This document shows, in pieces, positions 21,230 to 25,895 of a stretch of 64,000 bases of DNA. Under the pieces are notes generated by a model that saw only the letters and a list, made by a program, of their open reading frames with translations, searched no databases and was not told where the DNA came from. Source of the DNA: Parvularcula dongshanensis (GTDB lineage: Bacteria > Pseudomonadota > Alphaproteobacteria > Caulobacterales > Parvularculaceae); NCBI RefSeq assembly GCF_014199615.1, contig NZ_JACHOB010000003.1:62001-126000 (forward strand). Direction: 5' to 3'. How positions within the stretch are numbered: the first letter of the stretch is position 1; the number at the start of each line of letters is the position of its first letter. Position numbers and translations under genes: made by a program.

Positions 21230-23952
21230 TCGCTCTTCGGCGCGGTCTCCAGCGCGAGAGCGTGAAGCTCGCCGCCCATCCGGCCCTTAAGGGCGCGGTA
21301 GACGAGTTGGTGCTGCTGCACCCGGTTCAGCCCCTCGAAGGCGGCCGATTCGATCCGTGCCTTGTAGTGATCGCCGTCGCCCGCGAGGTCCGTGATCTGA
21401 ACTTCGGCGTCCGGCATGGCTTCGAGGATCAGCGTTTTGATGTCGTCTGCGGCCATGGGCATGGGGTCGGTCTCCTGTTCGAACAGGGCGGGGAGGGTGC
21501 CAGCGTGGATCGCGGCGAGGTCGTAGAGGCTGAGGCAGTCCTTGCCGTCGAGCACGACCGCCTCGCCGCCGAAGACGCCGAGGCGGCTCGCCTGGACGCC
21601 CGCCATCGCCGACTTGACGACGAGACTGTCGGCCTCGGACGCCGGCACGGCGAGGAGGTAGCGGCCCTGGTCCTCGCCGAACCAGAAGGCGGCGCGACGC
21701 TCCTTGACCGGGGTCGTCAGCGCGAGGCCCTCGCCTGAAGCCATCGCCATCTCGGCCGCAGCGACGAGGATACCGCCGTCCGAGACGTCGTGGACAGCTG
21801 CGACCTGTCCGCTCTCGATCAGGCGGCGGACGAGCTCGCCCGCCTTGCGTTCGGCGGCGAGGTCGACGGGGGGCGGGGCGCCCTCGGTCAGGGAGAAGAG
21901 CTCGCGAAGGTAGAGCGACTGGCCGAGCCAGCCGCGCGTGACGCCGATCGCGACGAGGGCGTCGCCCGGGCGAGCCGTGTCCATCCGGGCCGCCTTGGCG
22001 ACGTCGCCGATCAGGCCGACCGCGCCGATGGCCGGGGTCGGCGGGATGCCCTTGCCGCTGGTCTCGTTGTAGAGCGAGACGTTGCCGGAGACGACGGGCA
22101 TGGTCAGGGCTTCGCAGGCCTCGGTTATGCCTTCGAGGCAGCCGACGAACTGCGCCATGATCTCCGGCTTCTCGGGGTTGCCGAAGTTGAGGCAGTTGGT
22201 GATGGCGAGCGGCTCCGCCCCGACCGCGCAGAGGTTGCGGTAGCTCTCGGCGACCGCCTGGCGTCCGCCCATCTTGGGGTCCGCGAGGCAGTAGCGAGGC
22301 GTCACGTCCGTCGAGATCGCGAGCGACTTGTCCGTGCCGTGAACGCGGACGACGGCCGCGTCGCCGCCTGGGCCCTCTACCGTGTCGCCCATGACGGTGT
22401 GGTCGTATTGCGACCAGATCCACTCGCGCGAGCAGAGGTCCGGCGATCCGGCCAGGCGGGCGAGGGCGGTCAGGAGGGTGTCGCCCGACGGCGTGTCGGC
22501 GAGGTTCGCCGTCGTCTCCGCCGTCTCGGTCCGGGCGTCGGCGACCATGCCCGCCGCCTTCAGGTTCTCCGCCGCCTCGATCAGGGGCGCGAAGACGTCC
22601 GAGCCCGCGTCGATCGCGGCGCGGGCGTAAAGGGTCAGCCTGCCGTCGTCCTCACGCGCGGCGACGGCGGCGACGCCGGGGCGACCCTTCAGCGTCTCCT
22701 CGATCAGCGCGCCCGCGACCTCGTCCAGCGAACGCTCGCCGGCGGTCAGCGTGACCTCCGCCTCGCGCACGACCACCTTCGGGTCCTCGAGCTTCACCGC
22801 CTCGGGCAGCGGCGTGTGCGGGCGGTCGTAGTTCGGCGCCTCGTCGGCGAGGGGACCTACGGGCAGGTCCGCGACCACCTCGCCCTTGTGCCGAATGACG
22901 AGCTTACCGCTGTCCGTCGTCGTGCCGATAACCGCGAAGTCGACGCCCCACTTGTCGAAGATCGCCCGGGCCTCGTCCTCGCGTCCGGGCTTGAGCACCA
23001 TGAGCATGCGCTCCTGGCTCTCCGACAGCATCATCTCGTACGCCGTCATGCCCTCTTCGCGCTGGGGCACCTGGTCGAGGTCCATGTCGAAGCCGCCGGC
23101 GCCCGCCTTGATGCCGCCCGCAGCCATCTCGACGGAGGAGGAGGTGAGGCCCGCCGCGCCCATGTCCTGGATCGCGAGGATCGCGTCCTTGGCCATCAGC
23201 TCGAGGCAGGCCTCCAAGAGGAGCTTCTCGGTGAAGGGGTCGCCGACCTGCACGGTCGGTCGCTTCTCCTCGGAGGCGTCGTCGAACTCGGCCGAGGCCA
23301 TGGTCGCGCCGTGGATGCCGTCACGGCCGGTCTTGGAGCCGACATAGACGACGGGGTTGCCCGCCCCTTCCGCGGCGGAGAGGAAGATCTTGTCCTGATC
23401 CGCGATGCCGACGCACATCGCGTTGACGAGGATGTTGCCGTCATAGGCGGGGTCGAAGTTCGTCTCGCCGCCCACCGTCGGCACGCCCATGCAGTTGCCG
23501 TAGCCGCCGATGCCGGAGACGACGCCCGCGAGGAGGTGCTTCGTCTTGGGGTGCCCGATCGAGCCGAAGCGCAGCGCGTTCATCATCGCGACGGGCCGCG
23601 CGCCCATGGTGAAGACGTCGCGCATGATGCCGCCGACGCCGGTGGCCGCGCCCTGATAGGGCTCGATGAAGCTCGGGTGGTTGTGGCTCTCCATCTTGAA
23701 GATGACAGCCTGGCCGTCCCCAATGTCCACGACGCCCGCGTTCTCGCCCGGCCCGTGGATCACCCGCTCGCCCTTGGTAGGGAGCTTCGCGAGGTGGCGC
23801 CGCGAGGACTTGTAGGAGCAGTGCTCGGACCACATGACCGAGAAGATGCCGAGCTCGAGGAGGTTCGGCTCCCGCCCGAGCGAGGAGACGATCCGGTCGT
23901 ACTCCTGCAGCGTCAGGCCGTGTTCTTGGATGGTCTCGGGCGCATGTTCCAT
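21226..23952 (-). CDS. purL: PurL-BolA fusion: phosphoribosylformylglycinamidine synthase II with C-terminal BolA domain
   Basis: A 908-residue protein, about 160 longer than normal small PurL. Residues 1-394 and 486-825 are PurL, which converts FGAR to FGAM in purine synthesis with PurQ and PurS. Landmarks are [10 protein letters not shown] (41-50), [30 protein letters not shown] and HDVSDGGI. Residues about 395-485 are an extra segment rich in Ala/Glu not found in ordinary PurL. Residues 831-908 are a complete BolA/IbaG domain: [20 protein letters not shown], the conserved His881 in RVQQHQLVY, and [13 protein letters not shown]. In other alphaproteobacteria bolA is a separate gene just after purL. 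Here no stop separates them, although AGGAG and an ATG for BolA remain inside the frame. Confidence 0.93.
21460..21476 (-). promoter_or_regulatory. Internal ribosome-binding site and start codon for the BolA part
   Basis: On the minus strand AGGAG (complement of 21472-21476) stands nine bases before an in-frame ATG (complement of 21460-21462). From this ATG the BolA part alone would be 78 residues (21226-21462), the normal size of a free BolA of this type. It could be a relic of the unfused gene or could give a second product. Confidence 0.6.
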
Positions 23953-24483
23953 GCGCGGGGGATGCCGCGAGCGGGCGCGTCTGGCAAGAGCGGGCGACGC
24001 GCAGCCCCGATCGTCCGCCCTCTCTTTTGTGGCGCTACCGGCGGGCTGACCGCCCGCCTGCTTGAGCGCGGGCTGGCGGCACGGGCCTTCGGCCCCGGGC
24101 GCCAGCGGTGCGGGGCAGCGAGATCGGAAGCGAGGCAGCGCTCATCGTCCGCTTGCGCGGTGGTACGATGGTCCGGGGTGTCCCGCGCGCGGCTCGCCGC
24201 AGTTCGGGGAGTAGTGTGGTTGTCTGCGGCGCAAGGGGTCCCAAACCCTCGCCGCGCGCGGCACGAAGTCCTCCACGCTCCTCAGCGCGATCCGCCGGGG
24301 CCGTTCTTCAGCTCACCCGGCGCGTGTCTAACCTGACCAAGTGGGATGCATTCCATCATCCAGACTCGGACAGCACGTGACCTCGTGGCGGCAGGCAGGG
24401 GAGACGTCAGCTGTCCGCCCCGCCCCGGTCCTGCCGCGACGGGGGGAGAATGGCACGGAGCGGAAGGGCGGGGATAAGGTTCC
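23953..24483. other. Long gap with no recognisable gene
   Basis: About 530 bases between the purL start and the repeat element. Short open frames exist on both strands, but none has a family motif, a convincing start or normal codon use. The segment is GC-rich with several short hairpins, for example around 24218-24262. No tRNA or known ncRNA signature was recognised. The purL promoter must lie at its left edge. Confidence 0.5.
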
Positions 24484-25119
24484 CGTCGCCCCGGGCTCGT
24501 CCCGGGGCCCAACACCTGCGCCCTCCGCTAGCGCGGCCTCCCTGGTCCGGCAGGTCCGAGCCGCCGGGCGGCTCGCCATCGTCGCGCTTCGTGGCACCTC
24601 TCGGAGATGGACCCCGGGACGAGCCCGGGGTGACGGTTGGGCTGGCGTAAGCGCGCGAACGGCCACAGCCTTCCGTTCGTGGCCGACAGCTTCGTTACCA
24701 TCATGGCGAACCGGCGGAACGGGACGCTCTACACCGGGGTGACGGGGGACCTGCCGCGCCGGGTGGGGCAGCACCGGGCAGGGGCGGGCTCGACCTTCTG
24801 CGCGCGTTGGGGCTGCACGCGGCTCGTCTGGTACGGACGGTTCGAACGCATCGCGGATGCCATCGCGCACGAGAAGCGGGTCAAGAAGTGGCCGCGCGCC
24901 TACAAGCTGAACCTGATCGAGGCGCAGAACCCCGACTGGCGCGACCTGTGGTGGGACCTCGGCGGCTGGACGGGCTAGCCCCACCGTCACCCCGGGCCCG
25001 TCCCGGGGGTCCATCTCGTGAAGTGTCGGTCGGGTGCGGCGACGCGGAGGCGCGCAAGCGTTACCGCCAAGAGGGTCGAGGGTCCGGCTGTTGGGCCCCG
25101 GGACGAGCCCGGGGCGACG
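24484..25119. repeat. Nested inverted-repeat element enclosing a GIY-YIG gene
   Basis: Four related palindromic units frame the GIY-YIG gene symmetrically. The outer pair is 24484-24514 and 25089-25119: 31 bases, exact inverted copies. The inner pair is 24604-24637 and 24983-25017: 34 and 35 bases, inverted copies with one substitution and one inserted G. Every unit has a core of CCCCGGG-N5-CCCGGGG, itself a small hairpin, flanked by GTC(A/G)C. Within each end the outer and inner units are inverted, so each end can also fold as a large cruciform. The spacers between outer and inner units keep similar edges but are otherwise diverged. This is the layout of paired REP-like elements around a gene. 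Confidence 0.75.
24679..24978 (+). CDS. Small GIY-YIG nuclease-family protein
   Basis: A 99-residue single-domain protein of the GIY-YIG superfamily (the UvrC N-terminal/homing-nuclease fold). Seen are LYTGVTGDLPRRVGQHR, which holds the YIG-type strand and the catalytic-arginine region, then TRLVWYGRF, the Glu in HEKRVKKW, and NPDWRDLWWDL at the end. In most relatives the first motif reads YVYI(L/M); here it reads FVTIMAN, so the first tyrosine of GIY is missing. The start is uncertain: GTG 24679 gives the normal family length, while TTG 24637 lies inside the left inner repeat and ATG 24703 is too late. The gene ends five bases before the right inner repeat. Confidence 0.75.
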   Translation: MADSFVTIMANRRNGTLYTGVTGDLPRRVGQHRAGAGSTFCARWGCTRLVWYGRFERIADAIAHEKRVKKWPRAYKLNLIEAQNPDWRDLWWDLGGWTG

Positions 25120-25198
25120 CGAGCAGGGCGGTCGCGGCGCGCGGCCGCCCGTTCGCGGACAAAGCCTGCTGGCCTATCGCAAGTATGAGAAGCCGGAG
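25106..25198 (+). repeat. Direct repeat, copy A
   Basis: About 93 bases beginning AGCCCGGGGCGACGCGAGC and ending AGCCGGAG. It matches copy B at 26000-26113 in the same orientation, with B carrying extra bases internally. It starts inside the right outer unit of the GIY-YIG element. Together the two copies bracket the beta-barrel gene. The gap 25199-25244 holds nothing recognisable. Confidence 0.6.
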
Positions 25199-25244: not shown

Positions 25245-25895
25245 TCAGAACCCGAACCTGTAGGCCGCGAGAACGCTTACACCGCCATATCCAACGGTTA
25301 CTTCTGTGTCGCCATCACTTTCGTCAAACCCACCCGTGCCTAGATAAGCAGCCTCGATCCCAAAGCTGTTCGATCCGATGGGGACAGCTACGCCCACCTT
25401 AGCTTGATACCCAATTAGTCCGTCCGCATCGACGTCATCCGCGGTATCCGGCATGATGTAACCGACGCCGCCGCCGACAAAGGGCTCGAACCTGCCGAGG
25501 ATGGGTAAAGTGTAGACCCCGTTCGCCATGAACGCGAAGGTGTCTAGGGAGCCATCGAGATCGATCTTCGAACTTTCGCCGATGTCTTCGCCATCGAAGA
25601 TGAGCCCGACGCCATTAGCTTTCGTCGTGCGATACGTCACTTCCGCCTCGAGCGCGAAACGTGCGGATAGGCGGTGACCATAGAGGGCGCCAATCGCGAT
25701 ACCGGGTTCATAGTCGATGTACGCTGCAACATCATAATTTTCCGATCCCGGCAGAACAGCGTTCGTGTCGAGCGCGTCGTCGGTGACGACGAAGAGTCCG
25801 CCGTGAATCTGCGCATAAGAGCTCGTCTCCTGCGCGGTTGCTGTGCCGGTCAGCGTGATCGATGCTGCCAAAAGAACGGAACTGATGTTTCGCAT
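25245..25895 (-). CDS. Outer-membrane beta-barrel protein
   Basis: A 216-residue small barrel. A signal peptide (MRNISSVLLAASITLTGTATAQ) is followed by alternating amphipathic strands such as GIAIGALYGHRL, FALEAEVTYRT, FEPFVGGGVGYIM and VSVLAAYRFGF. It ends in Phe, as expected for Bam-dependent insertion. It resembles the OmpA-like/OMP_b-brl group; no specific function can be assigned. Base composition is noticeably less GC-rich than the flanking core genes, and the gene is bracketed by direct repeats A and B, so recent acquisition is plausible. Confidence 0.8.
   Translation of the reverse strand: MRNISSVLLAASITLTGTATAQETSSYAQIHGGLFVVTDDALDTNAVLPGSENYDVAAYIDYEPGIAIGALYGHRLSARFALEAEVTYRTTKANGVGLIFDGEDIGESSKIDLDGSLDTFAFMANGVYTLPILGRFEPFVGGGVGYIMPDTADDVDADGLIGYQAKVGVAVPIGSNSFGIEAAYLGTGGFDESDGDTEVTVGYGGVSVLAAYRFGF

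Follow-up and report, generated by a model that had tools for sequence, protein, structure and literature searches.

A small gene of the GIY-YIG nuclease family and a set of REP-type hairpin repeats together make up a probable mobile unit in Parvularcula dongshanensis. In the window (the whole stretch of 64,000 nucleotides that was analysed) the gene sits in a 636-bp block, framed by four CCCCGGG-N5-CCCGGGG hairpins, and the block is inserted into a copy of another repeat. In other genomes, repeats of this kind are associated with genes of the same family, the type of repeat tends to match the enzyme lineage among paralogues within genomes of one genus, and comparable blocks are polymorphic in presence and absence between related replicons. 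Our best reading, to which we give a probability of roughly 0.6, is that the block is a mobile element bounded by REPs, and that its nuclease recognises the hairpins of its own repeat family.

The first-pass annotation of this DNA had described an exact 31-base outer inverted pair and a near-exact inner pair, built of such hairpin units around a 99-residue GIY-YIG open reading frame within 636 bases, and the coordinates confirm this description (Table 1). The arms are exact in the hairpins at 24489-24507, 24612-24630, 24990-25008 and 25096-25114. The exact 31-nt outer pair is nested in a 45-nt inverted pair of 89% identity (24481-24525 / 25078-25122), and the inner pair (24612-24646 / 24974-25008) extends over 35 nt at 91%. 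Read on their own strands, the copies have the sequence CGTC(G/A)CCCCGGG-(CTCGT or CCCGT)-CCCGGGG(C/T/G), then CCA. The CGTC tag is present and unpaired in all four copies, the stems are 8, 8, 7 and 8 bp long with loops of 5 nt, and the CCA tail is in place in three copies, being displaced by a single G in the fourth. The repeats are ordered REP+ REP- gene REP+ REP-, with the tags facing outward within each dimer, and the stem of the inner right REP begins 14 nt past the last sense codon of the gene. Because the left and right dimers are about 70% identical as inverted copies of each other (170-column alignment), each end of the block corresponds to a REPIN-like unit and not to a lone hairpin. 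Single-strand folding of the four 31-mers gave z values of -3.5, -3.8, -1.8 and -3.1, and folding of the 636-nt block gave a z of -12 against 20 shuffles.

Table 1. Coordinates of the gene, the REP copies, the inserted block and the interrupted host repeat, as positions in the window.
Feature	Position	Strand	Details
GIY-YIG ORF	24679..24978	+	99 aa; GTG start 24679, stop 24976-24978
Outer left REP	24484..24514	+	CGTC tag outward, 8-bp stem, 5-nt loop, CCA tail
Inner left REP	24606..24636	-	minus-strand reading CCGTCACCCCGGGCTCGTCCCGGGGTCCATC
Inner right REP	24984..25014	+	tail shifted by one G
Outer right REP	25089..25119	-	exact inverse of 24484-24514
Inserted block	24479..25124	.	646 bp; compared with five uninterrupted host-repeat copies, TCGT is replaced between GGGGATAAG and AGGGCGGTCGCGG
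Host dispersed repeat, left part (insertion target)	24200..24478	+	matched, in full or in part, at 17 other genome sites
Host repeat, right part	25125..25149	+	in other copies, the first arm of a GTAG-footed hairpin

These features place the repeats close to the CGTC REPs. In the available text of Di Nocera, De Gregorio and Rocco (2013; PMC3733652), who named this mostly alphaproteobacterial class, its members are defined by a CGTC (or TGTC/CCTC) tag, a stem of 8-9 bp, a loop of 4-5 nt and a CCA tail; the stems almost invariably begin with complementary AT at positions 1-2, and copy number is high. The window repeats share the unpaired CGTC tag, the 8-bp stem, the 5-nt loop, the CCA tail, the organisation as inverted dimers and the prevalence in alphaproteobacteria. 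They differ in their very low copy number, in having a specific gene partner, and in stems that open with GC or AC and lack the AT start, which is seen in many relatives' REPs.

Comparison with the rest of the genome located the insertion site. The left part of a dispersed repeat, ending in GGGGATAAG, continues in five other copies as TCGT-(A/C)GGG(C/A)GGTCGCGGCACGCGGCCGC, whereas in the window the matching right part is displaced by 646 bp. Scores for the right part were 18-22 at the five uninterrupted copies, against shuffle maxima of 11-14; the other 12 of the 17 matches to the dispersed repeat have no right-part continuation. Since the 23-nt core of the right part occurs, at no more than one mismatch, in six places in the genome, namely the five intact copies and the window, the block interrupts a sixth copy of the host repeat. 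The five uninterrupted copies are a paralogous empty site in the same genome. The first-pass annotation had proposed that a mobile element should have empty sites matching its boundaries, and such a site exists here by paralogy, with the block edges 5 bp outside the outer REPs. No target-site duplication was found at these edges, where the flanks GTTCC and CGAGC differ and TCGT is missing. The insertion point coincides with the foot of a different hairpin, whose intact form (e.g., in L212 and L218) is CGTAGGGCGG...CCGCCCTACG. At the purL locus of nine congeners, all of which have purL, there was neither an adjacent GIY-YIG match nor a syntenic flank (L182 and L183 are short).

The host repeat has features of its own. 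It measures about 280-340 bp (24140-24478 in the window), with copies that mostly end in GGGGATAAG. At five loci of this genome (L212, L213, L214, L215 and L218) the hairpins that follow it have GTAG (or GTCG) at their foot; they are orphan GTAG-like repeats, no Y1/RAYT transposase having been detected in this genome.

One alternative is that the REPs were moved by a RAYT or another transposase, with the GIY-YIG gene as a passenger, and the GTAG-footed hairpins of this genome do resemble the RAYT-linked class. We regard this as very unlikely. A search covering the Y1_Tnp family (PF01797) detected no member in this genome, which is 99.98% complete, but was positive in five of 14 control genomes, so help from a RAYT is unlikely now. 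In addition, the available text of Di Nocera et al. (PMC3733652) describes the CGTC repeats as unlinked to transposase genes, save for a few fortuitous cases, and as apparently having no dedicated transposase, and leaves their mobilisation to future work.

The repeat is scarce in the genome that carries the block. Exact arm matches occur at nine sites genome-wide, four of them in the block, and the tagged motif with its tail, allowing three mismatches, gave nine matches (eight clear and one weak) in 3.13 Mb, against zero for the reversed control of the tagged motif in the same search. With about eight REPs the genome is REP-poor; matches to the REP pattern reach 71 in other family members. Each of the four clear copies outside the block is single within the 1.3 kb around it. 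The tagged motif was used for counting because the bare 19-mer with three mismatches is drowned in chance matches, with 15 in the window against 25.4 expected, which is not above chance, and a genome-wide count of 512 per strand where the control gave 594. What counts is the exact, tagged copies and not the loosened arm pattern. Two further loci of this genome (L036 and L037) form a pair of ~575-bp repeats, 83% identical, each member having one CGTC-type REP close to its end.

The 99-aa protein matched PF01541 (E 1.3e-10) and no other Pfam family, and an NCBIfam search with it assigned no family; the Pfam search of the same DNA additionally gave frames of 665 and 295 aa. Its AlphaFold model has a mean pLDDT of 92.7. 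The closest solved sequences are the UPF0213 proteins 1zg2 and 1ywl (profile E 6.3e-10 and 6.2e-7), and the closest solved folds are 1zg2 (E 1.1e-3) and, weakly, Slx1 (E 0.1-0.7). All of these share the GIY-YIG fold; Slx1 cuts branched DNA, and to our knowledge neither it nor the solved UPF0213 proteins are partners of hairpin repeats. The motif residues Y, Y, R, H, E and N have a catalytic role in GIY-YIG nucleases. Among 155 aligned sequences, hardly any variation is seen at the second Tyr, R, H, E, K and N, all of which the window protein keeps. The column of the first (GIY) Tyr holds 141 Y, 12 gaps, one H and one T, the window protein being the only sequence with Thr. Since this Tyr is regarded as catalytic across the superfamily, the window copy may be a weak cutter or fail to cut; it is perhaps catalytically impaired, and may be inactive or dead. 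Its pairwise dN/dS against the nearest homologue is about 0.3 (0.33/1.11), suggesting that selection has acted on the frame over most of the period that the comparison spans, although it may have decayed recently. Given the Thr and the few REPs in the genome, this copy is probably an old one. To the left of the block lies purL, on the minus strand and starting at 23952, and to the right a 216-aa minus-strand frame (25245-25895) that we read as a putative outer-membrane barrel. The family search also gave a weak homologue at C2:64007 (E 1.5e-6).

We next consider homologues in other genomes, which were picked by protein similarity and not by their repeats. A family search over 62 genomes found a GIY-YIG match in 50, with zero to five per genome, and these genes, together with the best 80 of at least 580 named relatives, gave 157 distinct genes. 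The 350 bp before each gene were compared with the 350 bp after it, counting inverted repeats that scored at least 16; five of the 157 genes had short flanks and were left out. A flanking inverted repeat was found at 87 of the remaining 152 genes, the other 65 scoring below 16; among 390 positions drawn at random from those loci there was none. Among the loci of the named relatives (the best 80 of at least 580), such a repeat flanked 45 of 79 GIY-YIG genes but only 13 of 1059 other ORFs, some of these 13 adjoining the GIY-YIG gene, as in L150, L120 and L137. The first-pass annotation had set against its own proposal an even spread of repeats with no association to GIY-YIG genes; the repeats instead show a strong association with GIY-YIG genes of this clade in many genomes.

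The density of strict REPs, defined as GTC, hairpin and CCA, falls with distance from the gene, from 3.55 per kb within 100 bp to 2.62 at 100-200 bp, 1.12 at 200-300 bp, 0.42 at 300-500 bp and 0.06-0.10 beyond 2 kb. Strict REPs are thus ~37-fold denser within 100 bp of the gene than at 4-10 kb (0.095 per kb). No strict REP lies within 350 bp of 72 of the 157 genes. The commonest layouts, with tags outward, are REP+ gene REP- (19 of 157) and REP+- gene REP+- (10 of 157), the latter being the layout in the window. In the 80 extracted repeats the tags are mainly GTC; CTC comes mostly from one genus, and ACT or CCT is found in the CCACGG type.

Such clustering might arise passively, if REPs gathered near small genes as terminators or at insertion hot spots with no functional tie. 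REPs lie predominantly downstream of coding regions in the available text of Di Nocera et al. (PMC3733652), and the 13 flanked ORFs mentioned above show that the arrangement is not confined to GIY-YIG genes. The complete lack of flanking repeats at random positions, the far lower rate at other ORFs, and the finding described below, that the REPs of paralogues match those of their own relatives and not the genome's other REPs, already strongly disfavour this explanation, which we find scarcely credible. Chance, terminators alone and RAYT mobilisation were rejected or ranked low (0/390; 45/79 versus 13/1059 at loci of the best 80 of at least 580 relatives; no Y1).

The association was also seen at the level of whole genomes. 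In a survey of 240 alphaproteobacterial genomes, of which 69 were gene-bearing at E <= 1e-12, at least five matches to the REP pattern were present in 27 of the 69 and in 6 of the 171 others (Fisher p 9e-12, uncorrected for kinship). Viewed from the repeats, the gene is carried by 27 of the 33 genomes with at least five matches and by 42 of the remaining 207. Six REP-rich genomes have no detected gene, among them G166 with 77 pattern matches. Fewer than five matches were found in 42 of the 69 gene-bearing genomes; the pattern is narrow, so that gene-bearing genomes with other REP types are scored as empty. In the family set, where 44 of the 62 genomes were gene-bearing at E <= 1e-18, at least five matches were found in 29 of the 44 and in 4 of the other 18 (p 0.002, again with kinship uncorrected).

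The hairpin sequence varies from gene to gene, and this variation tends to follow the enzyme. For 73 genes, protein similarity and REP similarity between genomes are correlated (Mantel r 0.26, a value reached by 0 of 2000 permutations); this test dropped seven of 80 REP rows, because of an orientation score below 1.5 or the lack of an aligned protein, and two of 157 proteins, which were 60 aa or shorter. As the correlation could come from shared descent of whole genomes, paralogues within one genome were compared. Here 21 comparisons placed the REP of a gene nearer to that of its closest relative elsewhere than to that of its companion in the genome, with 2 ties and 3 losses, the 26 ordered comparisons being drawn from seven genomes of a single genus (g7) and not all independent. 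Genome G023, for instance, has a single REP of the CATCCCTGC type and two of the CCACGG type, in each case next to the kind of protein that carries that type in other genomes. For the CCACGG family there were 31, 18, 11 and 2 matches in the four genomes searched, and several of its copies form close inverted pairs away from the GIY-YIG genes found. The analogy with REP/RAYT systems that had been drawn from the sequence therefore holds insofar as enzyme lineages tend to own a repeat (21/2/3). Like REPtrons and REPINs, the units described here have inverted hairpins framing a gene, a lineage-specific repeat, and gene-free repeats elsewhere; unlike them, the window unit has a GIY-YIG nuclease in place of a Y1 HUH transposase, and a CGTC tag in place of GTAG.

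Presence and absence of related blocks could be compared directly on plasmids. In Sphingobium, seven records have a block in the gap between fnrL and a response regulator gene, and four of these (L184, L195, L196 and L202) were aligned with four records lacking it. The hairpins flanking this block, GTC...CCCGGGGTCCC, do not end in CCA and so were missed by the strict REP scan. Two of the four block-free records have a single hairpin of the outer arms at the site, and the other two have none; in L191 the solo hairpin is CGTCACCCCGGG-TCAAG-CCCGGGGTGACGG, with tags at both ends, and L192 has a variant of it. Possible origins of the solo hairpin are a pre-existing target hairpin and a scar of recombination between the arms. 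Of the Shinella plasmid records aligned, two have a gene with a REP dimer on either side and three relatives are without the block; these three are from five block-free records at 82% coverage, and their surroundings are too diverged to fix the edge. At the Rhizobium CIAT894 locus, 80% coverage of the query is reached by the source record alone, and of the 39 other records listed (out of 134) not one extends across both flanks.

We take the Ssn/NTS system of Neisseria to be the closest relative of the window system. A homologue in N. gonorrhoeae, presumably Ssn itself, is 49% identical over 79 residues and has CGTCATTCCCGC...GCGGGAAT repeats on both sides of its gene; the identity and the flanking CGTCATTCCCGC hairpins fit Ssn/NTS as the nearest known system. 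The Ssn proteins, reportedly described by Chenal, Veyrier and others in Nature Communications in 2025, are said to be GIY-YIG single-strand nucleases that cut the NTS repeats, and the system is said to modulate transformation. Common to both are a small GIY-YIG protein and CGTCATTCCC-type hairpin repeats beside its gene. The window protein differs by the Thr at the GIY Tyr, and here the repeats and gene form a bounded, inserted block. The window protein could be a domesticated Ssn-like nuclease, whose sequence-specific single-strand cutting would tune uptake or recombination, with mobility as a by-product. The repeats on both sides of the gonococcal gene, the reported activity of Ssn on NTS and in transformation, and the pairwise dN/dS of about 0.3 are all in keeping with such a role. 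However, the genes are patchy and found at differing loci, the unit inserts as a block that is missing from sister plasmids, and this genome has few REPs, and we consider the domesticated role unlikely.

If the block is instead a mobile element bounded by REPs, its protein would recognise the hairpins that belong to its REP family, most probably while the DNA is single-stranded or extruded as a cruciform, and the nuclease would nick beside the GTC tag. Host gap repair or replication would then complete the copying, so that new REPs and REP-gene-REP units would be inserted with no duplication of the target. The matching of enzyme and repeat speaks for recognition, and nicking and copying by the GIY-YIG enzyme are suggested by its fold and by the absence of target duplication. 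We know of no GIY-YIG enzyme that joins DNA ends and of no strand-transfer activity for this fold, so finishing the copy would fall to host repair or replication. Gene-free REPs and REP pairs would be non-autonomous relatives of the REP-gene-REP element. The earlier suggestion that the GIY-YIG protein mobilises the hairpins thus gains from the association, the matching and the empty site, while cutting and moving by this protein is a step that we infer.

Together, these observations recommend the GIY-YIG clade as a good candidate for the partner that a large class of bacterial repeats has so far lacked. More tentatively, and at somewhat under even odds, the clade may be the long-missing dedicated enzyme of the CGTC REPs, and so a second, HUH-independent invention of the REP lifestyle by means of a 100-residue nuclease and host repair. 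If so, two unrelated enzyme folds would have reached the same way of living off hairpin repeats. With a tight and matched partner, the mobilisation of CGTC REPs, which are common throughout alphaproteobacteria, can be put to a direct test using a 100-residue protein and oligonucleotides of 30 nt. A search of the open literature found no paper joining GIY-YIG with 'repetitive extragenic palindromic' and, among the titles listed, none on a pairing of GIY-YIG and REPs, and the available part of RepRanger 2025 (PMC12306157) contains no mention of GIY-YIG or RAYT.

Several loci show further variations. At L012, L019 and L022, the REPs beside the gene are compound: a second hairpin of the GCAGCAT...ATGCTGC type sits inside the loop that an ATCCCGG stem closes. 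In Bacteroidota and other groups, homologues (L136, L138, L149, L094 and L143) lie near repeats of the GTCATTGCGAG...GCAATCC type, hinting at a wider spread. Finally, genome G010 has two tandem pairs of GIY-YIG genes, at C1:99426-100254 and 2135764-2136670 (L057 and L173), and L057 contains a long inverted repeat.
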